Shown here: positions 834-52,393 of the stretch, one piece after another
Layout of the letters: the number at the start of each line of letters is the position of its first letter
Position numbering within the stretch: the first letter of the stretch is position 1
Source of the DNA: Pseudomonadota bacterium
GTDB lineage: Bacteria; Pseudomonadota; Alphaproteobacteria; SP197
Reading direction: 5' to 3'
DNA: 59,316 nucleotides
NCBI GenBank assembly: GCA_039028155.1
Contig: JBCCIS010000032.1
Span: 1 to 59,316 of the forward strand
Notes under the pieces: model-generated
What the model saw: the letters and a program-made list of their open reading frames with translations, nothing else
Told to the model about the DNA's origin: nothing
The model's database searches: none
Position numbers and translations under genes: made by a program

Positions 834-1646
834 ATGGCTGACACCGACACCGGCATGCGTCTTGAACGGCGCGGCCATGTTCTGGAGATCACGTTGGATC
901 GGGGCAAGGTCAACGCGATCGACAACGCCATGAGTCGCGAACTCGGCAAGGCGTTCGTTACCTTGCGCGATGATCCCGAATTGCGTGTCGGTCTGATTAC
1001 CGGCGCGGGCGAGAAGATCTTCTCCGCCGGCTGGGATCTGAAGGCGCTCGACAGCGGCGATCAGGCCCTCGACAACTGGTGGGAGACCGAGGACGCGGCG
1101 TCCGGCGGCTTTGCCGGCATCACCGAGATGTGGGACCTGAACAAGCCGGTGATCGCTGCGCTGAACGGCATGGCGATCGGCGGCGGCTTCGAGATCGCGC
1201 TCGCCTGCGATCTCATCATCGCGGCCGACCACGTCCAGTTCCAACTGCCGGAAATGCCGCTTGGTATCGTGCCTGATGCCGGCGCCCTTCAGCGCCTGCC
1301 GCGCCGCCTGCCCTACACCATCGCGCTGGAGATGCTGCTGATGGGCCGGCGCATGCCGGTCGAGGAAGCCCAGCGCTATGGCCTCGTCAACCTGATCGTG
1401 CCGGCGGCAGATCTTATGGCAACGGCGCGCGCCTGGGCCGATCAGCTCGCCGAGTCGGCGCCGCTCGCCGTCCAAACGGTGAAGGAGGTGTTGCGCGCGG
1501 TCGAAGACGACACCATTCAGAACGCCTTTCACACCATGCGCACCGGCGATCTGCCGACCTATCGTCATATGCTGCGCTCCGACGACGCCAAGGAAGGCGT
1601 GCGCGCGTTCGTCGAGAAACGCAAACCCAACTTCAAAGGCGCCTAG
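834..1646 (+). CDS. Enoyl-CoA hydratase/isomerase family protein, CaiD-like
   Basis: A 270-residue crotonase-fold enzyme. The oxyanion-hole segment SAGWDLKAL (near residue 65) and the core NGMAIGGGFEIALACDL (near 115-130) are present, followed by LPEMPLGIVPDAGALQRLP, which resembles carnitinyl-CoA dehydratase CaiD more than general crotonases. Family chemistry is hydration, dehydration or isomerisation of acyl-CoA thioesters. The gene stops 10 bp before a carnitine-dehydrogenase-like gene and has an AGGAGAG ribosome site. The substrate is inferred to be carnitine-like; an ordinary enoyl-CoA hydratase is the alternative. Confidence 0.85.
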   Translation: MADTDTGMRLERRGHVLEITLDRGKVNAIDNAMSRELGKAFVTLRDDPELRVGLITGAGEKIFSAGWDLKALDSGDQALDNWWETEDAASGGFAGITEMWDLNKPVIAALNGMAIGGGFEIALACDLIIAADHVQFQLPEMPLGIVPDAGALQRLPRRLPYTIALEMLLMGRRMPVEEAQRYGLVNLIVPAADLMATARAWADQLAESAPLAVQTVKEVLRAVEDDTIQNAFHTMRTGDLPTYRHMLRSDDAKEGVRAFVEKRKPNFKGA

Positions 1647-1656
1647 GAGCCTCGCG

Positions 1657-2613
1657 ATGGCAAGAAAAGAACCCGGCGCAGTCACGCGCATCACCAGCAT
1701 CGGCGCCGGTCCGATCGGCGGCGGCTGGTCGACCTATTTCCTGGCCAAAGGCTATGACGTCACCGCCTATATCCATGACGCCAGCGAAGAGGAGCCGCTG
1801 CGCGCGCTTATCGACAACGCCTGGGCCGCGATGGAAGAGCTGGGCGTGGCCGACGGCGCGTCGCGCGACCGGCTGACCTGCACGACCGATCTGGCGGCGG
1901 CCGTCGCCGAAGCCGATTTCGTTCAGGAAAGCGTGCCGGAAATCCTCGACCTCAAACAGTCGATCTACGCCCAATTGGGCGATCTGGTGCCCGACGACGT
2001 CGTCATTGCATCGAGCACCTCGGGCCTGATGATGACCGACATCCAGGCCACGTGTTCGACGCCGGAACGCACGGTGACCGGCCATCCCTTCAACCCGCCC
2101 TATCTGATGCCCCTGGTCGAGGTCGTCGGCGGCGAGAAGACGGCGCCCGAGACCGTTGCCTGGGCCGGCGCGTTCTACGAGCACGCCGGCAAGGCGCCCT
2201 TGATGATGACCGCCGAGGTGCCGGGATTTGTCGCGACGCGCCTGCAGGAAGCGATCTGGCGCGAAGCCCTTCACATGGTCAACGAGGGCGAAGCCACGCC
2301 GGAGCAGATCGACACCGCCATCGTCAACGGGCCGGGGCCGCGCTGGGCCATCATGGGACCGTGCATGGTCTATCACGTTGGCGGCGGCGAAGGCGGCATG
2401 GAGTATTGCCTGGAGCAGTTCGGCCCGGCACTGAAACTGCCGTGGACCCGCCTGGTGGCGCCGGAGCTAACGCCGGAACTGCGCGCGAAGATGATCGAGG
2501 GCTGCGACCGGATGGCCGGCGACAAGGACTTCCGCCAGTTGACCCGCGAAATGAACGACAGCCTGGTCGCTATCGCCAAGGCGCTCAACGCCATCAGGGC
2601 GATGTCAGGCTGA
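1657..2613 (+). CDS. 3-hydroxyacyl-CoA dehydrogenase family, L-carnitine dehydrogenase-like
   Basis: The 318-residue product begins with a Rossmann NAD-binding site (SIGAGPIGGGW near residue 15), then the catalytic GHPFNPPYLMPLVEVVGGE region and a C-terminal 3HCDH domain containing GPGPRWAIMGP and EQFGPALKLPWTRL. The last motif is what I associate with L-carnitine 3-dehydrogenases rather than fatty-acid beta-oxidation enzymes. Carnitine dehydrogenases are often fused to, or next to, a betainyl-CoA thioesterase; this one ends without that domain. Its close spacing to the crotonase supports one operon. Substrate remains inferred. Confidence 0.82.
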   Translation: MARKEPGAVTRITSIGAGPIGGGWSTYFLAKGYDVTAYIHDASEEEPLRALIDNAWAAMEELGVADGASRDRLTCTTDLAAAVAEADFVQESVPEILDLKQSIYAQLGDLVPDDVVIASSTSGLMMTDIQATCSTPERTVTGHPFNPPYLMPLVEVVGGEKTAPETVAWAGAFYEHAGKAPLMMTAEVPGFVATRLQEAIWREALHMVNEGEATPEQIDTAIVNGPGPRWAIMGPCMVYHVGGGEGGMEYCLEQFGPALKLPWTRLVAPELTPELRAKMIEGCDRMAGDKDFRQLTREMNDSLVAIAKALNAIRAMSG

Positions 2614-2712
2614 CGGGAACGTCGCTTTTCGTGTCGAAATTCGCTTGGTGCGCCCGATGGGATCGTGAAGGATGCGCCAGAACGAATCGCGATTAGCAAA
2701 GGGGCAGGCGCC

Positions 2713-3240
2713 ATGGCCGTACCGGCGGAACTGAAGGCCGTGTTCGGGGCCGATACATCGGACAACGCCAAACTGGACGCGCTGATGAAGGTCATGTGCG
2801 ATGTGCTGCACTGCGATCGCTGCCTGCTTTTTCTACGCGACCCCGACAGTCGGAAGTCGCGCTGTACCCACGGCTATCAGACCAAACCCTCCTACGCGCT
2901 TGACCGGCCCGATGATGGCTGGGCGGCAGAACCGGAGAACCTGGTCGGCGACGACCCCATGTTCGCGGAGGCCATGCACAATCCCGAAGCGCTCTACATC
3001 GACAACATCGAGACCGCCTCGCCCGATCTGGTCAACGCGGCCTATGAGCGCGAACACTTCAAACACCAGGCGCTGGTCCATGCGCCGCTGCAGCATGACG
3101 GTAAGCTCTACGGCATCCTGGAACCCTGCACGATCGAAGCGCCGCGCCAGTGGACCGAGGCCGATCGCGAGGCGATTGCCTGGACCATGAAACAGCTAAC
3201 CCCTATCGCCGTGGCCTATGTCGCCGCGAATTGTCACTAA
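2713..3240 (+). CDS. GAF-domain protein
   Basis: A 175-residue soluble protein that looks like a single GAF domain: [20 protein letters not shown] at the N-terminus, a central variable loop, and the closing [19 protein letters not shown] strands. It carries no output domain. Cysteines sit in the predicted ligand pocket (DVLHCDRC), which could suit haem, redox or small-molecule sensing, but no ligand can be read. The ATG at 2713 is preceded by AAAGGGG; a GTG at 2665 is a weaker option. It lies between two catabolic enzyme genes, so it may sense the pathway substrate (inference). Confidence 0.72.
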
Positions 3241-3304
3241 TCCTGCTGCGATCCCCAAGCCTACTGAAACCGGGGTCGTACCAACACGTGAGGACCAAAC
3301 GACC

Positions 3305-4192
3305 ATGAACACCGATGTCATCATCACCTGCGCCGTCACCGGCGCCGGCGACACCACCGGCAAGAGCGATAAGGTGCCGGTCACGCCCGAGCAGATCGCC
3401 AATGCCGCCATCGACGCCGCCAAGGCCGGCGCCGCCGTCGCCCACATTCACGTGCGCGACCCGGAGACCGGCAAGGGGTCGCGCGATGTCGGCTTGTTCC
3501 GCGACGTCGTCGAACGGGTCCGGGCCAGCGATGTCGACGTTATCATTAACCTGACCGCCGGCATGGGCGGTGATCTGGTCGCCGATCCCGACAACCCGTC
3601 GGTGCCTGCGGAGGGCAGCGACCTGATCGGTCCTTCAGAGCGGCTTGCCCATGTCGCAGAGCTGATGCCGGAGATCTGCACCCTGGACTGCGGCACCATG
3701 AACTTCGGCAACGGTAACGAGACCTATCTGAACACCGCGGCCTTCATCCGCCAGATGGCCGCCGACATCAAAGACCTCGGCGTCAAGCCGGAGCTTGAGG
3801 TGTTCGACCTCGGCCAGGTGCGCCTGGCGAGCACGTTGGTCACCGAAGGTCTGATCGCCGATCCGCCGCTGTTCCAGGTCTGCCTCGGCATTCCCTGGGG
3901 CGCGGGCGCCGACACCCGCTCGATGGCCGCCATGGTCGACGGCCTGCCCGAAGGCGCCAACTGGGCGGGCTTCGGCATCAGCCGCATGCAGATGCCCATG
4001 GTCGCGCAGGCCATGCTGCTGGGCGGCAACGTGCGTGTCGGTCTGGAGGACAACATCTATCTCGACCGTGGCGTTCTGGCGTCAAACGGCGATCTGGTCG
4101 CCCGCGCGGGCGAGATCATCCAGCGCCTCGGCGGCAAGGTCCTGAACCCCGAAGAGGCCCGCCAGAAGCTTGGATTGCCGACAAAGCACTGA
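3305..4192 (+). CDS. Beta-keto acid cleavage enzyme (BKACE, DUF849)
   Basis: The 295-residue protein shows the BKACE signatures: TCAVTGAGD at the N-terminus, the zinc-binding HIHVRD (His47 and His49), [19 protein letters not shown], and the VGLEDN glutamate near the C-terminus. The family condenses a beta-keto acid with acetyl-CoA, giving acetoacetate and a new acyl-CoA; one established substrate is 3-dehydrocarnitine. A carnitine-dehydrogenase-like gene upstream makes that substrate plausible here. The ATG at 3305 has GTGAGGA upstream and matches the family N-terminus; an earlier in-frame start at 3218 would add unrelated residues and overlap the previous gene. Confidence 0.88.
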
Positions 4193-5230: not shown

Positions 5231-6109
5231 CTACCAGCGCAACAGGGGTATGGCCGCCACCGGGCTCACATTGGCCTCGCGGCAGGCGGTGTCGACCAAG
5301 TCTTGGTCAGGCATGACGTCAGGTGCAATACCCCAGTCGTGGGCCGGCAGGCCGCCGGTGATCCAGACCGCGTCAAGGCCGGCCAGGCGCGCACCGAGGA
5401 TATCGGTGTGCAAACCGTCGCCAATCGCCAGCGCTGAAGCGCTTGGCGCCTCGTGGAGCACATCAAGGCAATGGCGGTAGACGCCGGGCAGCGGCTTGCC
5501 CTCCTGGCGCATGTCACCGCCCAGCTCGACATACCGCTCGGCAATGCGTCCAGCGCAGAGTTCGCGCGAGCTGCCGCGTAGCACCGATTTGTCCGGATTG
5601 GTACAGACCATGGGCAATCCGAGTTCCAGGAACTCGGCCAACATGTCTTCGAAGTCACCGAGCTGCTCGTCCCGGCTCCTGATGCCGCAACACAGGACGA
5701 AGTCGGCGTTCTTGGCGTCCGGCACACGCTCGAAGTCCAGGCCATCCAAGAGCTTGGCGTCGGGCTCGGTACCGATATGGAAGAAACGGCGGCCCAGACC
5801 GGCATACCAGGGATCGGTCGCCTCCTCGATCTCCAGCCTGACCGCCTCGCCAGCCGTCATGATGGCATCGTAGGTGCCGGGCTCGACCCCCATGCGCACC
5901 AGTTGCTGAGCGACGGCCGAGGACCGGCGCGGCGCGTTGGAGAGGAAGATGACCTTGGCGCCGTCGCCCCGGACCCGCGCCATCCAGTCAAGCGCGTCTG
6001 GATAGGCCGCAATGCCGTTGTGAAGACAGCCCCACAGGTCGACCACGTAGACGTCGTAGCCGGCGCCCAGTTCCTGGAGACCGGCCAGTCTCGGTACGCC
6101 CGATGTCAC
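5231..6109 (-). CDS. HAD-superfamily class IIA hydrolase (TIGR01459-like)
   Basis: The 292-residue protein follows the NagD-like HAD plan: motif I DLWGCLHNG near residue 24, motif II FLSNAPRR, a motif III lysine in GKPLPGVY, and motif IV IGDGLHTDILGA. The position usually holding the second motif-I aspartate is Trp, which I recall as normal for this subfamily (DxWG) and not a local lesion. These enzymes act on phosphate esters; the physiological substrate is not known to me. It lies between an SDR and a DUF302 gene on the minus strand with very short gaps. Confidence 0.85.
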   Translation of the reverse strand: MTSGVPRLAGLQELGAGYDVYVVDLWGCLHNGIAAYPDALDWMARVRGDGAKVIFLSNAPRRSSAVAQQLVRMGVEPGTYDAIMTAGEAVRLEIEEATDPWYAGLGRRFFHIGTEPDAKLLDGLDFERVPDAKNADFVLCCGIRSRDEQLGDFEDMLAEFLELGLPMVCTNPDKSVLRGSSRELCAGRIAERYVELGGDMRQEGKPLPGVYRHCLDVLHEAPSASALAIGDGLHTDILGARLAGLDAVWITGGLPAHDWGIAPDVMPDQDLVDTACREANVSPVAAIPLLRW

Positions 6110-6674: not shown

Positions 6675-7814
6675 CTAGAGCTCCTGCAGGCTTCCCAGAC
6701 CGCGATCGAGGATCGTCTCGACCGCCAGCATCATGGTGACGTAGCCCTGCCAATCCACGTCGTCGGGGTCGACATGGGTGAAGCTCGACACCAGAAAGAG
6801 CTCGGTGTCCGGTACGGTTGTCCGAAGATTCAAACTCTCGGTATAGGGCACGATCTGGTCGTCCAGGCCGTGCACCAAGATAAGCTTGCCGCCCAGGGAT
6901 TCGAGGTCATGGCGTGACGGCGACAGCGTCGTCAGCGAGGTCAGAATGGACGGCGGTAACGCCTGAAGCAGCGCGCCCGACCTGTCGGGATCGCGGTTCT
7001 CGAACAGCTCCATCAGCGCGACGGCATCGCTCCCCAGATAGGCGCGTAGGTTGGAGAGATCGACATCCGGGTTCTCCGCCCGCAGCCGCGCTGCTTCCTG
7101 CAACAATTCGCCTTCGGCGGGGTCAGGCCAGCGCTCGGCGTTGGCCGCCATGAAGACCCAGCCGGCGCGCAGATTGCCAGGGCCATACTGCCATTCGGTC
7201 TCGCCCGTTTCGCGGAAGGCGCCAGTGGTCAGGTAGGTGATCACGCTTTCGGCGTCGTGGTAGCCGCCCAGGGCGACGACGTAATCGACCCGGTCGGCAA
7301 CGCGCGCGTCGATCGCGGCGACCATCGCCGGTCCGGCGGCATAGGACACCGCCGCGATACCGACCGGCGTCTCGTCGACCGCCTCGCCGGTCCGTGCCTT
7401 GATCGTCGCGATCAGTCCTTCGACGTCGACCTCGCTGACCATCAGGCTGCGTGATCCCGGCAGATCGGGCACGTGAACCGCGAAACCGGCGCGCGCGAAC
7501 GTCTTGGCGAGCGCCATCAGCCGCCCGTCGTCCTTGCCGGCGGGCGAGAAGCCGGGCACCAGGATCAGATGACCGCGATAGCCGTTGCGGTCTACATAAG
7601 TGTCGACCGCCAGGGTGTCGCCGGACATCGGCACGAACCCGGTCGAGCGGACCGGCTCGTCGGTCATCTCCTTGATCAGGCTGGACCCACCGGCAGCCAC
7701 CATGTCCTCAAGCACCATGGTCGGCGTGGCGAAACGCCACAGCAGAAAGCCGACGACAAGCAGGCAGACGAGGACCAGACCAAGGCCGGTCCGGAACAAA
7801 AGCCGGCGCGTCAC
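6675..7814 (-). CDS. Membrane-anchored alpha/beta hydrolase
   Basis: The protein (379 residues from the GTG at 7814) begins with Arg-rich residues and one long hydrophobic helix (GLGLVLVCLLVVGFLLW), a likely signal anchor leaving the enzyme outside the membrane. The hydrolase fold shows HLILVPGFSP at the oxyanion strand, a nucleophile elbow AVSYAAG in place of the usual GxSxG, an acid in GLDDQIVP and the histidine in SFTHVDP. An upstream ATG at 7856 is possible but lacks a ribosome site and would precede the anchor with Cys-rich residues. Substrate unknown. Confidence 0.75.
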   Translation of the reverse strand: MTRRLLFRTGLGLVLVCLLVVGFLLWRFATPTMVLEDMVAAGGSSLIKEMTDEPVRSTGFVPMSGDTLAVDTYVDRNGYRGHLILVPGFSPAGKDDGRLMALAKTFARAGFAVHVPDLPGSRSLMVSEVDVEGLIATIKARTGEAVDETPVGIAAVSYAAGPAMVAAIDARVADRVDYVVALGGYHDAESVITYLTTGAFRETGETEWQYGPGNLRAGWVFMAANAERWPDPAEGELLQEAARLRAENPDVDLSNLRAYLGSDAVALMELFENRDPDRSGALLQALPPSILTSLTTLSPSRHDLESLGGKLILVHGLDDQIVPYTESLNLRTTVPDTELFLVSSFTHVDPDDVDWQGYVTMMLAVETILDRGLGSLQEL

Positions 7815-7879
7815 GGGCTTGCTTTCTTCACCGCAGGGCCCCAAGCATGGGCGCATGAACTGGTCTAGTGGATTGCGGC

Positions 7880-8437
7880 ATGGTCGAAGTGCCTGAACTC
7901 TCTACTGAACGGCTGATATTAAGGCCGCTTGATGATGGCGATCATGGGGCGATGGCGGAGCTGTTCGCCGACGCCGACGCAATGTGGGACCTGATAGGCA
8001 TTCCCGGCCGACCAAGCGATGGCGACGGTCTGGCACGCTATTACATCGAGCGTTCGATGTGGAGTTGGCAGCACTACCGCGCGGGGTTGTGGAGCCTGTC
8101 GTTGCGCCATCCCGACCCAAACCAGGCGGTCTTTGCCGGCTACGCCGGCTTTGTCATTGAACACGGCGAGAAACTCGACCCCGCCGAGAGCATCGAGCTC
8201 GGCTGGGCGCTGGCGCCGGACCAGCGCGGAAAGGGCCTGGCGATTGAGGCGACAAAGGCCGCCATGACCTATGCCTTCGACGTCCTGGGCAGCCGCCAGG
8301 TCGCCGCGATCACCAGCCCCGACAACTGGCCGTCGCGCCGGCTGATGGAACGCCTCGGCATGACCTATGAAAAGGACGTCACCGCCTATCAGGGCCGACA
8401 GGTCTACTACGCCATCGCGCGACCCGACGATGGCTGA
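7880..8437 (+). CDS. GNAT N-acetyltransferase (RimJ/RimL type)
   Basis: The 185-residue product has the hallmarks of the RimJ/RimL-like GNAT group: STERLILRPL at the start, ELGWALAPDQRGKGLAIEA as the acetyl-CoA pyrophosphate loop, and the late NWPSRRLMERLGM motif. It would transfer an acetyl group to an unidentified amine. GTG at 7868 is an alternative start; the ATG at 7880 gives the standard N-terminus. It diverges from the membrane hydrolase gene, and its stop codon abuts that of the convergent oxygenase gene with no spacer. Confidence 0.85.
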   Translation: MVEVPELSTERLILRPLDDGDHGAMAELFADADAMWDLIGIPGRPSDGDGLARYYIERSMWSWQHYRAGLWSLSLRHPDPNQAVFAGYAGFVIEHGEKLDPAESIELGWALAPDQRGKGLAIEATKAAMTYAFDVLGSRQVAAITSPDNWPSRRLMERLGMTYEKDVTAYQGRQVYYAIARPDDG

Positions 8438-9412
8438 TCAGGCCGACTTGCGCCGGTGATCGAAGTTGCGGTTGGTGAACGCCAGGATGTGATCGAGATA
8501 GCGGATTGGCGGATGCTCGGGCGGTCTGTCGGCGCTTTGACATGTCGGCAGGCACGCGATCTCCGCCTCGAAATCGGGATCGAAGAAGAACGGGATCGAA
8601 TACCGTTCAACGCCCGCCAGATTGACGACCCGGTGCGGCGTCGACGGATAGATCCCGTTGGTCCAGCGACTTAGGATCTGGCCAATGTTGACCAGGAACA
8701 TGCCGGGCATCACGGGCGCGGGGAACCATTCGCCGTCGCGGCTTTGTATGTCGAGCCCGCGTACATCGGCCTGCGCCAGATAGGTGGTAAAGCCGGCATC
8801 GGTATGCGGCCCGGTGCCAAACTCCTCGCCGTCGAACGCGTCCTGCGGCGGGTAGTGCGAAATCCGCAGCGTGATGCTTGGTTCGCGGAACGATTTACCG
8901 AAGTGGTCGAGCGGCAGGTCGAGCGACGCGGCGAACAGCGGCAACATGCGCTGGCCCAACGCCTCCATCGCGTTCATGTAGGTCAGCATGGCGGGTCGGA
9001 ACGCGGGCAGCTCCGCGGGCCACTGGTTCAGACCGCGCAACGGCAAACCCGCAACGACGGCGGGGTCGTCCGGGTCGCGCTCGCGTTTCATGAAGTAGGA
9101 AGCCACCAGATTGGGACGCGTCGCCTGATGCACGGTCGACGTTCGTTGCATGCTGGTTTGCGAGGCCATGTAGCCGATGTTGTGTTCGTTAATCGTGTAG
9201 GCCTGCTTGACGTCAAGTGGTAGCGCATGCAACGCGCGGGTCTCGGCAAAGGCACCATCGACCGTGTCATCGGGCACACCGTGCCCGGCCAGGAAGAAGA
9301 AACCGACATCGATGCAGGCGGCCCGCAGTTCACTGCCGAGGCGCTTGTATGAGGCTTCATCGCCCGTGTTCAGCGCACTGATGTCGATGACCGGAATGCC
9401 GCCGCTACCCAT
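8438..9412 (-). CDS. 2-oxoglutarate/Fe(II)-dependent oxygenase, isopenicillin N synthase-like
   Basis: A 324-residue non-haem iron oxygenase with an N-terminal DIOX_N region (GIPVIDISAL; GFFFLAGHGV) and a C-terminal 2OG-Fe(II) domain. The facial triad is His203-x-Asp205 (GPHTDAG) and His260 (STPHRVVN), with Arg270 in RYSIPFFF positioned for the 2-oxoglutarate carboxylate. The ATG at 9412 has CGAGG upstream; a longer frame would run into the next gene. It lies 52 bp downstream of the HAL-like gene on the same strand, so both may act on one amino-acid-derived compound (inference). Substrate unknown. Confidence 0.88.
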   Translation of the reverse strand: MGSGGIPVIDISALNTGDEASYKRLGSELRAACIDVGFFFLAGHGVPDDTVDGAFAETRALHALPLDVKQAYTINEHNIGYMASQTSMQRTSTVHQATRPNLVASYFMKRERDPDDPAVVAGLPLRGLNQWPAELPAFRPAMLTYMNAMEALGQRMLPLFAASLDLPLDHFGKSFREPSITLRISHYPPQDAFDGEEFGTGPHTDAGFTTYLAQADVRGLDIQSRDGEWFPAPVMPGMFLVNIGQILSRWTNGIYPSTPHRVVNLAGVERYSIPFFFDPDFEAEIACLPTCQSADRPPEHPPIRYLDHILAFTNRNFDHRRKSA

Positions 9413-9464
9413 TACAAACCTCGATTCGTGTGTCGGATACCCGTCATGGTAGGCCACCCGGCGG

Positions 9465-10976
9465 TTAACCGCTACCCGCGTCAAGGCACGCATCGAACGC
9501 ACCGTCGCGCAGCATGGTCGTAACCCTCTCCAGATCTGCCGTCATGCTGCGGTCGTTGTCCAGGGGTTCGACGGTTTCGCGAACGCGGTCGCGAAGTGCC
9601 CGTGCCACCGGCGCGATCTGGTCCAGACCGCGCAGATCGAGCGCCTGGGCAGCGACGATTAGTTCCGTCGCCATCAACTGCTCCATGAGGTCCAGCGCCT
9701 CGGCGGCCTTACGCACCGCAAGCGGCGTCATCGGTGCGTGATCCTCGACAGGGTAACCCATCGAGTCGAACACACTGGCCGGTTGCGCCTTCATGGCGAT
9801 TTCCTTGGCCAGTGTCTCGGCCGTCAACGACAGCAGCGCGACGCCGGTATGGGTCATCCCACGCTTTGTCAGCAAATCGGGCAGATCGGTAAACTCGTTC
9901 TTCATCAGCCGAGCGACCCGTTGCGCGGCCAGCGATGCGGTCTGCGACAAAGCCAGCGCTAGGGTATCGAAGGCCACGGCCATCGCCGGGGTATGGAAGT
10001 TCCCGTTCGAGAGGATCTCCTCGTCATCGGCCAGCACCAGTGGGTTGTCGCCGGCGCCGTTGATTTCGACCAGCACGTTGGGTGCGCAGAAGTCGATTGC
10101 CGCGCGCAGGCTGCCATGAACATGGCTGACACAACGCAGGCTGATCGGGTCCTGCAGGCGCCGCGGCTCGCCGGCATCGAATAAGGCGCTGCCCGCCAGC
10201 TTCTCGCGCAGGCTTGCCGCCGCCCGCGCCTGCCCCGGTGCCGCGCGCGACCGCACGACACGGGGATCAAGCGGGCTTGGGTTGGCGCGGAACGCTTCAA
10301 AGGTCAAAACGGCGATGCCGTCGAGCAGTTCGGCGATATGGGCGGCGTCGTGAAGCGCAAGCGCGCCGTACCCGGCCGAGATCGAATTAGCGCTGCACAG
10401 CGCGAGACCTTCTTTTTCGAGCGGCTCAACCGGTTCAAGACCGGCCCGCGCCATCGCCTCGGCGCCTGCGACGGTCTCGTCGCGGTAGACCGCGCGGCCC
10501 TCGCCGATCAGGGGAAGCGCCAGATTGGCCAGCAGCGGCAGATCCGACGCGCCGACGGAGCCGACCGACGGCACAAGCGGATGGACGCCGGCGTTCAGCA
10601 TGGCGCACTGGGTCTCGACGATGAGCGGCCGGACGCCGGCGCCGCCCTGGGCCATGCTGCTGGCACGCGCGGCGAGTGCTGCGCGGATTACTTCTTGCGG
10701 CAAGTAGGGCCCGGCGCCGCAGGCGCGCGCCAGGACGACAATGCGACTGAACCCTTCGCGTTCACCTTCCTGGATCTCGTGGACCACCCGTCCGCCGAGT
10801 CCCCGGGTGATGCCGTAGACGGGCCTGCCCTCGTCGGCGAAACGTTCGATCAACGCGCGCGACTGGTTCATGCGTTGGCGCGCCATGTCATCCAACGCCA
10901 CCGTGCTCCCGCCACGCGCGACGGCCACAATCTCGGCGATGCCGATCGCCTCGCCGCCCAAATGAATGTCTGCCAT
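9465..10976 (-). CDS. Histidine/aromatic ammonia-lyase homologue with altered active site
   Basis: The 503-residue protein has full HAL/PAL length and fold signatures (VYGITRGLG, GSVGASDL, EGLAL, GDNPLVL, GNFHT, VEDHAPM). The loop that normally reads Ala-Ser-Gly-Asp-Leu reads Ala143-Ser144-Asp145-Leu, one residue short, so the glycine needed for the MIO cofactor is missing. Asn of the NGT motif is Ser195 and the catalytic Tyr of DPYSLR is Ile278. Tyr54, Arg281, Phe327 and Glu411 remain. It belongs to the family by descent, but ordinary MIO ammonia-lyase chemistry is doubtful. GGAGG precedes the ATG. Probably co-transcribed with the downstream oxygenase. Confidence 0.85.
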   Translation of the reverse strand: MADIHLGGEAIGIAEIVAVARGGSTVALDDMARQRMNQSRALIERFADEGRPVYGITRGLGGRVVHEIQEGEREGFSRIVVLARACGAGPYLPQEVIRAALAARASSMAQGGAGVRPLIVETQCAMLNAGVHPLVPSVGSVGASDLPLLANLALPLIGEGRAVYRDETVAGAEAMARAGLEPVEPLEKEGLALCSANSISAGYGALALHDAAHIAELLDGIAVLTFEAFRANPSPLDPRVVRSRAAPGQARAAASLREKLAGSALFDAGEPRRLQDPISLRCVSHVHGSLRAAIDFCAPNVLVEINGAGDNPLVLADDEEILSNGNFHTPAMAVAFDTLALALSQTASLAAQRVARLMKNEFTDLPDLLTKRGMTHTGVALLSLTAETLAKEIAMKAQPASVFDSMGYPVEDHAPMTPLAVRKAAEALDLMEQLMATELIVAAQALDLRGLDQIAPVARALRDRVRETVEPLDNDRSMTADLERVTTMLRDGAFDACLDAGSG

Positions 10977-11115
10977 CGCGCTACCTCCTCTGTGGGCGGA
11001 ACAAACCCGCCACGCCTCCAGCTTCTAGACGTACCGCCGCGCCCTGCCAATCGCCCGAAACCCCCGGCCAGGTGACCATGATCACTAGCAATTTCACCCG
11101 ACGGACCAACATTTA

Positions 11116-11135
11116 GGTTGTTCATAAGAACAACC
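11116..11135. promoter_or_regulatory. Perfect inverted repeat, candidate operator
   Basis: GGTTGTTC and GAACAACC face each other across the 4-nt spacer ATAA, a perfect 8-bp dyad. It lies about 140 bp upstream of the HAL-like start and 315 bp upstream of asmA. The size and symmetry fit a dimeric regulator, but I cannot name one, and the same sequence could fold as an RNA hairpin. Confidence 0.45.
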
Positions 11136-11176
11136 AGTTTCGAAGACAGCGCAAACCTCTTCGAATCAGCACTTTA

Positions 11177-11211
11177 GCCCCCGCTGAGCCAGGCCTCGGG
11201 ACAGCGGGGGC
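11177..11211 (+). ncRNA. Stable hairpin, part of a possible short RNA or leader
   Basis: GCCCCCGCTG (11177-11186) pairs with CAGCGGGGGC (11202-11211), a 10-bp GC-rich stem over a 15-nt loop. It is followed by CTTCATG rather than a T-run. With the terminator-like hairpin at 11297-11331 on the same strand it could be the body of a small RNA or a leader. No promoter was identified with confidence. Confidence 0.35.
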
Positions 11212-11296
11212 CTTCATGTCTGCACCCCAAAAACCCGCCAATCCACAAAAACACCCCTTTTGATCCGCTCACCGCGGTGACAAAAAGGTGTGATGA

Positions 11297-11331
11297 GGGC
11301 CATCAATGCGATCGCCTTGATGGCCCTTTTT
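11297..11331 (+). terminator. Rho-independent terminator, plus strand
   Basis: GGGCCATCAA (11297-11306) pairs with TTGATGGCCC (11317-11326), followed directly by TTTTT. The T-run exists only in plus-strand reading, yet no plus-strand gene lies upstream within 2.8 kb. It therefore ends either an unannotated short RNA or an attenuated leader of asmA, whose start is about 120 bp downstream. Confidence 0.65.
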
Positions 11332-11450
11332 GGACGCCCCCGACGCTGACAAAAAGCGCAATCGGCCATTGCTCCGGGACCGATGGACGTCTTATCAAGA
11401 ACACATTCTGGCCCTATTGATTCGGCCGGGGCTGTTGAGTGGGGACTGTT

Positions 11451-13511
11451 ATGAAAAAGATTCTGATTGGCGTTGGCGTCGTCATCGTCGTTTTGATCCT
11501 GGTCGTGCTGATAGCGCCGATGTTCATCCCAATCGATTGGGTGAAGGAAAAGGTCATCGCGCAGGTGAAGGAGAGCACCGGCCGCGATCTGAAACTGGAC
11601 GGCGATGTCAGCGTTTCGCTGTTGCCCACAACATCGGTGGCATTGACCGACGTCGCGCTGAGCAATCGGCCGGGCAGCGATGTCGCGGACATGATCACGC
11701 TGAAGGGTCTGGAACTGGATGTCGGATTGTTTCCGCTGATTGACGGCCAGCTTGAAATCAACCGCTTCGTCTTGATCGAGCCGAATATCCATGTTGAGGT
11801 CGACGAACAGGGCCAGGGCAACTGGGTGTTCGAAGGCCAAGGCGGCGACACGACGACGACCGCCGAAGACACCTCCGGCGACACGTCATCGGGCGGCGGC
11901 ACAGATCTGGGCAGCATCAAGCTTGGCGACGTGCGGATCGAAAACGGCCGCCTGACTTATGCCGACCTGGCGACCGGCGAAAAGACCGAGATTTCCGATC
12001 TGAACATCACGTTCGATCTGCCGGATATGGACAGCCCCTTTGTCGGCGACGGCAGCCTGACCTTCAACAACCAGCCGGTGAACTTCACGATTTCGACGGG
12101 CGCGCCGGCGGCGCTCCAAGCCGGCCAGCCGGTTGACGCGTCCTTTGAGCTGACCAGCGACAGCATCACGACAAAATTCAACGGCACCATGGCAACCGGA
12201 GACGGCCCTGCGCTGAACGGCGAATTGGATCTTCAGATCCCCAGCCTGTCTGGCCTCGTCGCGTGGGTCGCCGAACCCCTGCCCGAAGAGACGCCGGCAC
12301 CGGAGACCATTTCGATCACGGGTCAACTCGACCTGGCCGCCGCGCGCTACGCGTTTAACAGCGCCTCGATCAAGATCGACGAGATGACGACCGAAGGCGA
12401 CATGGCCGTCGACATGAGCGGCGCCGTTCCGATGGTGACCGCGTCGCTGGCCGTCGATCACATCAACCTCAATCCCTATATGGGCGAGCCGGCCGGCGAT
12501 GATGCCGGCGCTTCCGGCGATGGCGACAGCACCGGCGGAACAGAAGGCGGCGATACGGGCGGCCAGCAGCAGGGCTGGAGCGAAGAGCCGTTTGACTTCT
12601 CCGCGCTCGACCTTCTGAATGCCGATCTCTCGCTCACCGCCCAGGCGATCACGATCCAGGAGATCAAGATCGGTCCCAGCGCTGTCGACGTCGACATCAC
12701 CGACGGTTCGATGAACGTGAACCTGAAGGAAATGGCGCTTTACGATGGCCAGGGCACGGCGACCGTCGAACTAAACCGCGGCGGTTCGGTACCGCAGATC
12801 AACAAGACCCTGAATGTTCAGTCGATCCAGGCCCAACCGCTGCTGACCGATGCGGCCGGCTTTGACAATCTCTCAGGCACCGGCGCCATTCAGATGCAGG
12901 TCACCGCCTACGGCAATTCGCAAAAGGACATGGTCGACACGCTGAACGGCGACGGCAGCATCATGTTCCAGGATGGCGCCTTCCAAGGCATCAATCTGGC
13001 CAGCATGCTGCGCAACTTCTCCTTGGACGCGCTGCAGGGCGCCATGGACTCGACGCAGAAGACCGACTTCGCGGAACTGTCGGGCACCTTCACCATCAAC
13101 AACGGCATCGTCAGCAACAACGACCTCTTGATGGTCGCGCCGCTGCTGCGCGTGACCGGCGAAGGCACGATCCCCATGCCCCCACGCACGCTCGACTACT
13201 TGGTGGTGGCCAAGGCCGTCGCTTCGCTGGAGGGCCAGGGCGGCGAGACGGATCAGGATGGCGTTCCTGTGCCGCTGAAGATCACAGGTTCCTGGGACAA
13301 CCCGTCGGTTCAGCCGGACATGGAAGCCATGGCGCGCGGTCTCTTGGAAAACCCCGACGCCATCGGCGACCAGTTGGAGCAGCTTCAGGACGGCCTGGGT
13401 GGCGGCGAAGACGGTTCGGGTGGCGTCGGCGATCTGCTTGAAGGGGTTACCGGCGGCGGCGAGGACGGCTCCGACGACGCGACTGACGCGATCAAAGGCC
13501 TCTTCGACTAG
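11451..13511 (+). CDS. AsmA-family protein
   Basis: The 686-residue protein starts with a single membrane anchor (MKKILIGVGVVIVVLILVVL) and then the AsmA N-terminal signature VKEKVIAQVKESTGRDLKLD with LTDVALSNRPG. The C-terminal AsmA-like domain contains GTGAIQMQVTAYG and FQDGAFQGINLASMLRN. Acidic Gly/Ser/Thr-rich linkers near residues 140-150 and 350-380 and a Gly/Asp-rich tail separate the parts. AsmA-type proteins are linked to envelope lipid traffic; the exact role here is not known. The ATG at 11451 is chosen over a GTG 12 bp upstream because it starts directly at the anchor. Downstream it is convergent with the kinase gene. Confidence 0.88.
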   Translation: MKKILIGVGVVIVVLILVVLIAPMFIPIDWVKEKVIAQVKESTGRDLKLDGDVSVSLLPTTSVALTDVALSNRPGSDVADMITLKGLELDVGLFPLIDGQLEINRFVLIEPNIHVEVDEQGQGNWVFEGQGGDTTTTAEDTSGDTSSGGGTDLGSIKLGDVRIENGRLTYADLATGEKTEISDLNITFDLPDMDSPFVGDGSLTFNNQPVNFTISTGAPAALQAGQPVDASFELTSDSITTKFNGTMATGDGPALNGELDLQIPSLSGLVAWVAEPLPEETPAPETISITGQLDLAAARYAFNSASIKIDEMTTEGDMAVDMSGAVPMVTASLAVDHINLNPYMGEPAGDDAGASGDGDSTGGTEGGDTGGQQQGWSEEPFDFSALDLLNADLSLTAQAITIQEIKIGPSAVDVDITDGSMNVNLKEMALYDGQGTATVELNRGGSVPQINKTLNVQSIQAQPLLTDAAGFDNLSGTGAIQMQVTAYGNSQKDMVDTLNGDGSIMFQDGAFQGINLASMLRNFSLDALQGAMDSTQKTDFAELSGTFTINNGIVSNNDLLMVAPLLRVTGEGTIPMPPRTLDYLVVAKAVASLEGQGGETDQDGVPVPLKITGSWDNPSVQPDMEAMARGLLENPDAIGDQLEQLQDGLGGGEDGSGGVGDLLEGVTGGGEDGSDDATDAIKGLFD

Positions 13512-51253: not shown

Positions 51254-52393
51254 CTACCCCTCGACCAGGCAATCGACCAGGCCGTCGGCGATGCCGTTCA
51301 TCAGCTGACCGTAGAGCGCTGGACCCGGCTCATACTCCGCGCCCAACGGGTCGAGAACGCCGACCCTGACATCTGTGCCCTCGATGATGGTGTCGATGAC
51401 GCGCGGCGAGAACTGCGGCTCGCGGAACACGCAGACAATCTCCTCATCGGCCAGACGATCCTGGATCGCCGCGATGCGCGCGGCGCCCGGCTGGCGTTCC
51501 GGAGAGACGACCACCGAGCCCACGGCGTCCGCCCCGAAATGATCGCCGAAATACTGATAGGCATCGTGGAACACCAGGTAGGGCCGATCGCCGACCGGCT
51601 CAAGCTTGGCGGCAATCTCGGCAGACATCGCATCAATCTCGCCCGTTAACCGATCGCCATTGGCCTGATAGGCCGCGGCGTTGTCGGGATCCATCTCGAC
51701 CAGTTCATCGACGACAATCGTGACAATCGCCTTGGCGTTGTCGGGATCGAGCCAAATGTGGGCGTCGGCGCCTTCGTGAGCGTGGTCGTCGTGACCATCG
51801 TGGTCATCGTGTTCGGCATGATCGTCATGGCCGTGATCGTCATGGTCATGTTCGCCATGCTCGTCGTGATCATCATGATCGTCGTGTTCGGCATGATCGT
51901 CATGGTCATGATCGTCGTGCTCCGCATGATCGTCGTGGTCATGATCGTCGTGATCGTCGTGCTCCGCATGATCGTCGTGATCATCGTGCTCCGCATGATC
52001 GTCATGGTCGTCGTGGGCGTGATCCTCCCAGTTGTCGCCTTCGCGATACTCCAGCGTCATAACACCGGGCGTTTCGACCAGTTCCACCACATGTGCATTG
52101 GTCGCCAGGTTCGGAATGGCGTCGACCAGGAAAGACTCCAGATTTTCGCCGACCCAAACCACGAGATCGGCCTGTTGCAATGCTTCCGCTTCCGACGGCT
52201 TGAGCGCGTAGGCATGGGGCGATCCGGCGCCGCGCACGATCAGCGCGGGCTCGCCGACACCGTCCATCACGCCGGCGACGAGCGAATGGATCGGCTGGAT
52301 CGAGACCACCACGTTGGGTGCGTCCGCGGCTCTGACAGCAGCAGCCGGAACGAGGCAAAGCGCGGCTACACCGCTTAGCAGATAGTTTCTCAT
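51254..52393 (-). CDS. znuA: Zinc ABC transporter substrate-binding protein, ZnuA-like
   Basis: The 379-residue periplasmic protein has a signal peptide (MRNYLLSGVAALCLVPAAAV) and the cluster A-I zinc sites: His60 in GSPHAYALKPS, a second in ADAHIWLDP and a third in FHDAYQYFGDHF. Between them, residues about 125-212 are a loop with roughly 30 histidines alternating with Asp and Glu, likely a zinc-buffering loop. It binds zinc for an ABC importer, but no znuB or znuC is adjacent. It sits inside the tkt-gap-pgk set on the opposite strand. A Zur-like box precedes it. Confidence 0.88.
   Translation of the reverse strand: MRNYLLSGVAALCLVPAAAVRAADAPNVVVSIQPIHSLVAGVMDGVGEPALIVRGAGSPHAYALKPSEAEALQQADLVVWVGENLESFLVDAIPNLATNAHVVELVETPGVMTLEYREGDNWEDHAHDDHDDHAEHDDHDDHAEHDDHDDHDHDDHAEHDDHDHDDHAEHDDHDDHDEHGEHDHDDHGHDDHAEHDDHDGHDDHAHEGADAHIWLDPDNAKAIVTIVVDELVEMDPDNAAAYQANGDRLTGEIDAMSAEIAAKLEPVGDRPYLVFHDAYQYFGDHFGADAVGSVVVSPERQPGAARIAAIQDRLADEEIVCVFREPQFSPRVIDTIIEGTDVRVGVLDPLGAEYEPGPALYGQLMNGIADGLVDCLVEG
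51758..52021 (-). repeat. His/Asp-coding repeat inside znuA
   Basis: This 264-bp stretch consists of near-repeats of CATGA(T/C)GA(C/T)-type units coding for HDD, HAEHDD and similar triplets. It is coding, but its repetitiveness makes length changes by slippage likely. The opposite strand reads as a long Met/Val/Ile-rich frame that is only its mirror. Confidence 0.8.

Follow-up and report, generated by a model that had tools for sequence, protein, structure and literature searches.

In HAL-type enzymes, the nitrogen of the Gly in the Ala-Ser-Gly triad closes the ring of the MIO cofactor. To our knowledge, the only characterised member of the family that is free of MIO releases trimethylamine. 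This is ergothionase, the ergothioneine trimethylamine-lyase of Treponema denticola (PDB 6s7j/6s7q), described in passages of two reports as lacking MIO and freeing trimethylamine from ergothioneine (PMC13405746; PMC7653990). MIO-less relatives of HAL are therefore already known through ergothionase, and proteins of this kind are not unprecedented. In the literature that we searched, largely without subscription journals, we found neither MIO-less HAL relatives other than ergothionase nor a description of the clade analysed here, which is represented in a 59,316-nucleotide alphaproteobacterial DNA stretch (the window).

A full-length HAL/PAL-family protein with a shortened MIO loop

The lyase gene of the window runs on the minus strand from 10976 to 9465, with an ATG start and zero internal stops across its reading frame.

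9465..10976, minus: gene for an MIO-less HAL/PAL-family protein of 503 aa, PF00221 (open reading frame, Pfam, NCBIfam, AF2 model and fold match)
10984..10989, minus: AGGAGG, ribosome-binding-like site of the lyase gene, 7 bases upstream of the ATG (sequence)

A promoter and terminator scan of 8300–11500 gave no clear excess above shuffled sequence. The initial annotation had described a full-length HAL/PAL homologue without a standard MIO triad, and this is borne out: the match to PF00221 (449.6 bits) covers residues 13–467, that is, the full length, and the loop is one residue short. The score against the NCBIfam hutH model, 392.2 bits, does not reach the equivalog cut-off of 539. The genome of the window contains two PF00221 matches, the short-loop protein and a separate HAL with Ala-Ser-Gly.

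In alignments, the loop reads GSVGAS-DL in the window protein and GSVGASGDL in HAL. The gap falls at the Gly, and Asp145 aligns with the Asp found directly after the Ala-Ser-Gly of normal HAL; this rules out a Gly-to-Asp exchange in the triad and indicates a deletion. No intact Ala-Ser-Gly is found elsewhere in the same loop. Some PDB entries for HAL write the MIO as a single X and hence only seem short, whereas the ergothionase chain carries the real letters GEGD.

10542..10550, minus: shortened MIO loop, Ala143-Ser144-Asp145, with the Gly of Ala-Ser-Gly absent (alignments)
10803..10805, minus: Arg58 (alignment columns)
10725..10727, minus: Arg84, at the place of HAL His83 (alignment columns)
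10392..10394, minus: Ser195, at the place of HAL Asn195 (alignment columns)
10143..10145, minus: Ile278, at the place of HAL Tyr280 (alignment columns)
9825..9827, minus: Leu384, at the place of the family Lys (alignment columns)
9804..9806, minus: Lys391 (alignment columns and predicted helix)

The residues singled out by the initial annotation (Ala143-Ser144-Asp145, Ser195, Ile278, Tyr54, Arg281, Phe327 and Glu411) were all read directly; Arg58, Arg84 and Lys391 are further notable residues that were absent from its list. Tyr54, Gln275, Arg281, Phe327 and Glu411 are kept, and in reading them we assume the roles that we take these residues to have in HAL. The window protein thus has the fold and length of HAL (hutH; 1b8f, 1gkj), 31–32% identity to it and the Asp after the triad, but it differs in having no Ala-Ser-Gly, Ser for Asn195, Ile for Tyr280 and Arg for His83, and in falling below the hutH cut-off.

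The short loop is conserved under purifying selection

The clade of the window protein comprises 15 loci here (the window, L033–L045 and L098), 14 of them intact and one (L045, the same as L016) broken. Matches with 63–68% identity occur in 13 of the 14 other genomes of the same family; one genome of the same genus holds a 66-residue piece that is 91% identical, and named records with clade matches include a Kiloniellaceae genome. Tyr54, Arg58, Arg84, Ser144, Asp145, Gln275, Ile278, Arg281, Phe327, Lys391 and Glu411 are invariant in all 14 intact members. Variation is seen at positions 143 (Ala in 13, Gly in 1), 195 (Ser in 12, Ala in 2) and 384 (Leu in 11, His in 2, Met in 1). The one-residue-short loop is present in every intact clade member and in all 28 other short-loop and ergothionase-like rows of our alignment, and the full loop in all 36 Ala-Ser-Gly rows, a group defined by that triad; L045 was left out of the loop counts because its gene is broken.

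The clade gene is under purifying selection, with dN/dS values of 0.045–0.292 over ten pairs, in five of which dS is greater than 1. That the short loop is a sequencing or assembly error, or that the gene is a pseudogene, is scarcely credible: although the lyase of L045 (8001–9335) really is broken, with a stop and a deletion that spans the MIO loop, the same gap recurs in all 14 intact members from separate assemblies, and dN/dS is low. The suggestion of the initial annotation that this is a repurposed scaffold and not a pseudogene accordingly agrees with the intact orthologues and their dN/dS values.

The protein belongs to a wider short-loop group

Our alignment of 88 sequences contains 36 with Ala-Ser-Gly, 42 with a one-residue-short loop, 9 with a three-residue-short GSVGY loop and the broken L045. 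The 42 one-residue-short rows consist of 14 from the window clade, 4 that are ergothionase-like and 24 others. Two trees were built from it. The careful tree used 59 of the 88 rows, with the loop and other trait columns left out and near-duplicates, L045 and the long rows L029 and L030 dropped; the quick tree used 68 rows and all columns, with near-duplicates and the broken L045 dropped. In the careful tree, the short-loop rows and ergothionase lie on one side of a branch, with 1 change; the window clade (100/100) groups with L104, L055 and L107 (97/96), and the window protein falls outside the separate clade (100/100) of the four ergothionase-like rows. The quick tree agrees with this (SH-aLRT 99 and 100), and in both trees the GSVGY rows split off between the rows with Ala-Ser-Gly and those with the short loop. 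The trees are unrooted, and the number of MIO losses (one or two) is not readable from them. Aligning the HAL/PAL family and clustering it by the MIO loop, as had been proposed, thus groups the window protein with the short-loop rows and ergothionase, and it fits this MIO-less PF00221 group both by its short loop and by lying on the same side of the branch when the loop columns are left out.

A profile built from ten short-loop rows found at least 14 places in at least 9 of 398 Pseudomonadota genomes at 591–764 bits, and the other places listed scored 405 bits or less; at most three candidates per genome were scored, which makes these counts lower bounds, and loops were read for 10 of the 14 high-scoring places. 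Six short-loop or ergothionase-like genes are named histidine ammonia-lyase in public records. Because they lack the MIO triad, the short-loop proteins, including several with this annotation, probably do not deaminate histidine.

The GSVGY rows represent a second MIO-less PF00221 type, with the loop GSVGY---L (L072, L073, L076, L077, L080, L081, L083, L088 and L103). They are three residues short, have Pro at the place of Phe327 and come from Pseudomonadota of other classes. The GSVGY copy adjoins an Ala-Ser-Gly copy at L072, L073, L080 and L083, and a short-loop copy at L103.

The family comparison also bears on the idea that Ala-Ser-Asp still cyclises to an MIO-like group and that the protein is an ordinary ammonia-lyase, raised by the initial annotation as an 'MIO variant with Asp'. 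Ser144 is indeed present in all 14 intact clade members. However, the Asp is the ordinary one that follows the triad, the ring-closing Gly is deleted, and Asn195 and Tyr280 are gone; moreover, one clade member has Gly-Ser-Asp, and 23 of the 24 other short-loop rows carry Ala, Gly or Asp instead of the Ser. No known family that makes MIO from Ala-Ser-Asp turned up in the literature searched, which was mostly open-access. We consider cyclisation very improbable.

Short-loop genes annotated as hutH also occur on plasmids of Rhizobium, Sinorhizobium, Martelella and Paracoccus (L053, L054 and L057–L060). They have the same short loop without the MIO triad, are 36–39% identical to the window protein and retain Thr58 and the family lysine; five of the six are annotated as histidine ammonia-lyase and L060 carries no annotation. 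Their neighbours are OCD-family, betaine-binding-protein-like and CoA-transferase, SDR and MaoC genes, in sets that vary. At L057–L060 and L099, the short-loop gene lies with CoA-transferase, SDR and MaoC genes, and L058–L060 and L099 also have HutC and betaine-binding-protein-like genes. These loci possibly serve the catabolism of a betaine, and the CoA-transferase, SDR and MaoC proteins of the Rhizobium loci would suit side-chain oxidation of the acrylate formed by the lyase.

Residues that set the clade apart from ergothionase

Ergothionase is 29% identical to the window protein and lies on the same side of the branch as the window clade in both trees. The two share the HAL fold, a one-residue-short loop (GEG-D in ergothionase), Ser at the 195 place, an aliphatic residue at the 278 place, Arg at the place of Arg58 and the conserved Tyr, Gln, Arg, Phe and Glu set. 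By contrast, the window clade has Arg84 in place of His, Leu384 in place of Lys and the additional Lys391, and stands outside the ergothionase-like clade (100/100). The Lys of the QKT stretch (the 384 place) is presumably one of the essential residues of ergothionase, and we take the His at the place of HAL His83 to stand on its imidazole side. Leu384, Arg84 and the tree rule out ergothionase proper as the identity of the window protein, and on these sequence grounds we do not file the clade as ergothionase. A search for EgtD gave no match in the 14 family genomes; control genomes gave one weak hit only, which leaves the sensitivity of the search unproven, and uptake would need no EgtD.

Twenty columns are invariant in the clade; among the 28 other short-loop and ergothionase-like rows, no more than 8% match the clade residue at any of these columns. 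Of special interest among the features of this contrast are Arg58, the loss of Lys384 and Lys391, which split the clade from its sisters together, so that a correlation between them is not assessable. Thr occupies place 58, which belongs to the Tyr loop, in 35 of the 36 Ala-Ser-Gly rows and in 23 of the 24 other short-loop rows (the 24th is truncated here); Arg is found there in two of the four ergothionase-like rows (ergothionase and one relative) and is hence not unique to the clade. At place 84, the other short-loop rows have Arg (17) or His (7), and all four ergothionase-like rows have His. Lys at place 384 is present in all 24 other short-loop rows and three of the four ergothionase-like rows but in none of the 14 clade members; given the nested position of the clade in the trees as drawn, we interpret this absence as a derived loss. 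This lysine is common in the short-loop group but does not define it, being absent also from L095. Lys391 is confined to the clade: all 14 intact members have it, and the 73 outside rows all lack it. In the AF2 model it is seven residues on from 384 (i+7), two helical turns further along the same predicted helix (377–396).

Two loci with ergothionase-like genes differ in their surroundings. On a Paracoccus saliphilus plasmid (L094, 6911–8599), the gene lies beside hutI, hutH, hutG and hutU, and could feed urocanate from histidine betaine. On pSymA of Sinorhizobium meliloti (L095, 6929–8569), a 'hutH' of this kind has Ala for the family lysine; a gene annotated as dimethylsulfoniopropionate lyase is situated about 2.7 kb away.

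The model itself has a pLDDT of 81 and a pTM of 0.85. Residues 56–68, 73–85, 141–143, 276–278 and 406–412 fall under pLDDT 50, as expected when a single chain is modelled, because the pocket of HAL-type enzymes lies between subunits; active-site geometry from the model was set aside for this reason. Its fold matches are 7tqr (HAL, Z 38.6), tyrosine aminomutase (37.2), ergothionase 6s7j (36.4) and 1b8f (35.1). HAL and aminomutase chains thus tie with or exceed ergothionase, so the modelled fold alone does not choose between the three. By raw sequence score, the nearest solved proteins are HALs (247 and 241 bits), with ergothionase at 232 bits.

Along with the MIO triad, the clade has lost Asn195, Tyr280 and the family lysine, as it might if catalysis had been given up and the fold served as a binding or regulatory protein. 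We regard this as improbable, because Tyr54, Gln275, Arg281, Phe327 and Glu411 are fixed, as are one Lys and one Arg that are unusual elsewhere, and the gene is under purifying selection.

Distinct gene neighbours

Neighbours were compared between the 15 clade loci and 23 other family loci using a single reference protein set (tblastn, E 1e-15), in which the references for the oxygenase, the HAD-IIA hydrolase, the alpha/beta-hydrolase-like protein and the molybdopterin oxidoreductase came from the clade and those for the OCD-family and betaine-binding proteins from the others.

8438..9412, minus: 2OG-Fe(II) oxygenase, DIOX_N + 2OG-FeII_Oxy (Pfam; best solved relatives 9ovh and 6jyv)
6675..7856, minus: alpha/beta-hydrolase-like protein, conserved neighbour, a weaker case (8/15 clade loci)
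5231..6109, minus: HAD-IIA hydrolase TIGR01459, conserved neighbour, a weaker case (NCBIfam; 9/15 clade loci)

The oxygenase gene starts 52 bases past the lyase stop on the same strand. A DIOX_N 2OG oxygenase adjoins the lyase at 8 of the 15 clade loci (one gene further on at L043) and at none of the 23 others, although flank lengths differ and part of such contrasts may be divergence or missing flank; the oxygenase is a probable partner of the lyase. The same contrast holds for the alpha/beta-hydrolase-like gene (8/15 versus 0/23), a relative of which matches Pfam Abhydrolase_1 only below the cut-off, for the HAD-IIA gene (9/15 versus 0/23) and for a molybdopterin oxidoreductase (7/15 versus 0/23), which is absent from the 25 kb of the window that were searched. 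Conversely, an ornithine-cyclodeaminase-family (OCD) gene, the commonest partner at the other loci (15/23), and a betaine-binding-protein-like gene (9/23), labelled in the records as glycine betaine binding protein, are found at none of the 15 clade loci.

Methylated-amine genes lie at single loci. DMGDH-like, TauD and AMP-ligase genes are found at L043, and the broken lyase of L045 is followed by sarcosine oxidase and MTTB genes. In the window, genes resembling crotonobetainyl-CoA hydratase, L-carnitine dehydrogenase and 3-keto-5-aminohexanoate cleavage enzyme (BKACE) occupy 834–4192 on the plus strand, all under their NCBIfam cut-offs; they possibly form a carnitine-like degradation cluster, 5–9 kb from the lyase and on the opposite strand. 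Elsewhere in the window, the reading frame at 51254–52393 (minus) has a translation with an extended tract rich in His, Asp and Glu and, by eye, resembles the binding protein of a zinc ABC transporter.

The nearness of MTTB at L045 and L104 is weakened as support by the abundance of MTTB matches (9–15 in each of nine genomes searched), and TIGR03105 (type III glutamate-ammonia ligase), which exceeded the cut-off in eight of nine genomes, was too unspecific to serve as context.

The separate HAL of the window's genome (L001, G000:C62:5814-7277) adjoins two MTTB-type methyltransferase matches (G000:C62:7476-8972 and 9133-10632). PF00221 and MTTB matches also lie no more than about 1.6 kb apart in G002, G003, G004, G006 and G012, but not in G008; these pairings are by coordinates, with Ala-Ser-Gly read only for G000 and G002, and G007 has no second PF00221 match. 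MTTB beside HAL could reflect demethylation of histidine betaine (hercynine) feeding HAL.

At L040 and L042, the gene for phosphonoacetaldehyde hydrolase (PhnX) runs to 8004 and shares 4 bases with the start of the lyase gene; PhnX of L042 scores 304 bits against the phosphonatase model (cut-off 220). PhnX was set aside as a general partner, because it is intact at only these two of the 15 loci. The overlap nevertheless fits an MIO-free lyase or isomerase with the same pocket and a leaving group other than a quaternary ammonium, for example with Arg58 and Arg84 holding a substrate that is anionic or bears a phosphonate or sulfonium. Both arginines are present in all 14 intact members, and the 2OG oxygenase and molybdopterin oxidoreductase partners are unlike those of the rest of the family. 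With PhnX intact at so few loci, reduced to a 76-aa remnant at L041, and with trimethylamine freed by the one characterised MIO-free member that we know of, we judge such a leaving group unlikely, although it deserves weight.

A proposed MIO-independent elimination

We favour, with moderate confidence, a reading in which the window protein is an MIO-independent lyase of the ergothionase-related short-loop family, acting on a pre-activated, amino-acid-like (betaine-like) substrate with a good leaving group. By analogy with ergothionase, this group would most probably be a quaternary ammonium, lost as trimethylamine from an amino-acid betaine. Some of the HAL chemistry would persist: the conserved Tyr would take a proton from the beta-carbon, Arg281 would hold the alpha-carboxylate and the alpha-nitrogen would leave. 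With a good leaving group already present on the substrate, MIO would be dispensable; a quaternary ammonium could leave without electrophilic activation, a logic that would fit the whole short-loop group. The substrate should differ from ergothioneine, because the clade has Arg84 instead of His, lacks the family lysine and has fixed Arg58 and Lys391.

For an MIO-free lyase speaks the short loop common to ergothionase and 27 further proteins outside the clade, and for trimethylamine the quaternary-amine context, seen in the nine betaine-binding loci among the 23 others, at L043 and L045 and in the carnitine-like genes of the window. The trees, the five residues kept in all 14 intact members, the modelled fold and the separate HAL of the genome also speak for this reading. 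Against this reading stand the missing family lysine and the lack of a betaine-binding-protein match at all 15 clade loci. The OCD-family partner is likewise absent from the clade and does not itself suggest trimethylamine chemistry, the PhnX overlap at L040 and L042 points to another substrate there, the L045 copy is broken, the active-site loops of the AF2 model are poor, and HALs are nearer than ergothionase by raw sequence score and tie with or exceed it, as do aminomutase chains, by fold.

Arg58 and Arg84 may, speculatively, point to an anionic side group. We tentatively sketch a rebuilt acid–base set, a possible course of events but not the one we would expect, in which the family lysine moved from 384 to 391, Arg58 came in, and the enzyme eliminates an amine; its substrate would be new, of betaine type and probably anionic, used by bacteria that live on methylated amines, and the pathway would include a 2OG oxygenase of its own.

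If betaines are the substrates from which short-loop proteins free trimethylamine or another tertiary amine, then pathways leading from plant and marine betaines to trimethylamine would have gone unrecognised in many genomes, and the window clade would show how one scaffold changes its catalytic residues after the loss of its cofactor.
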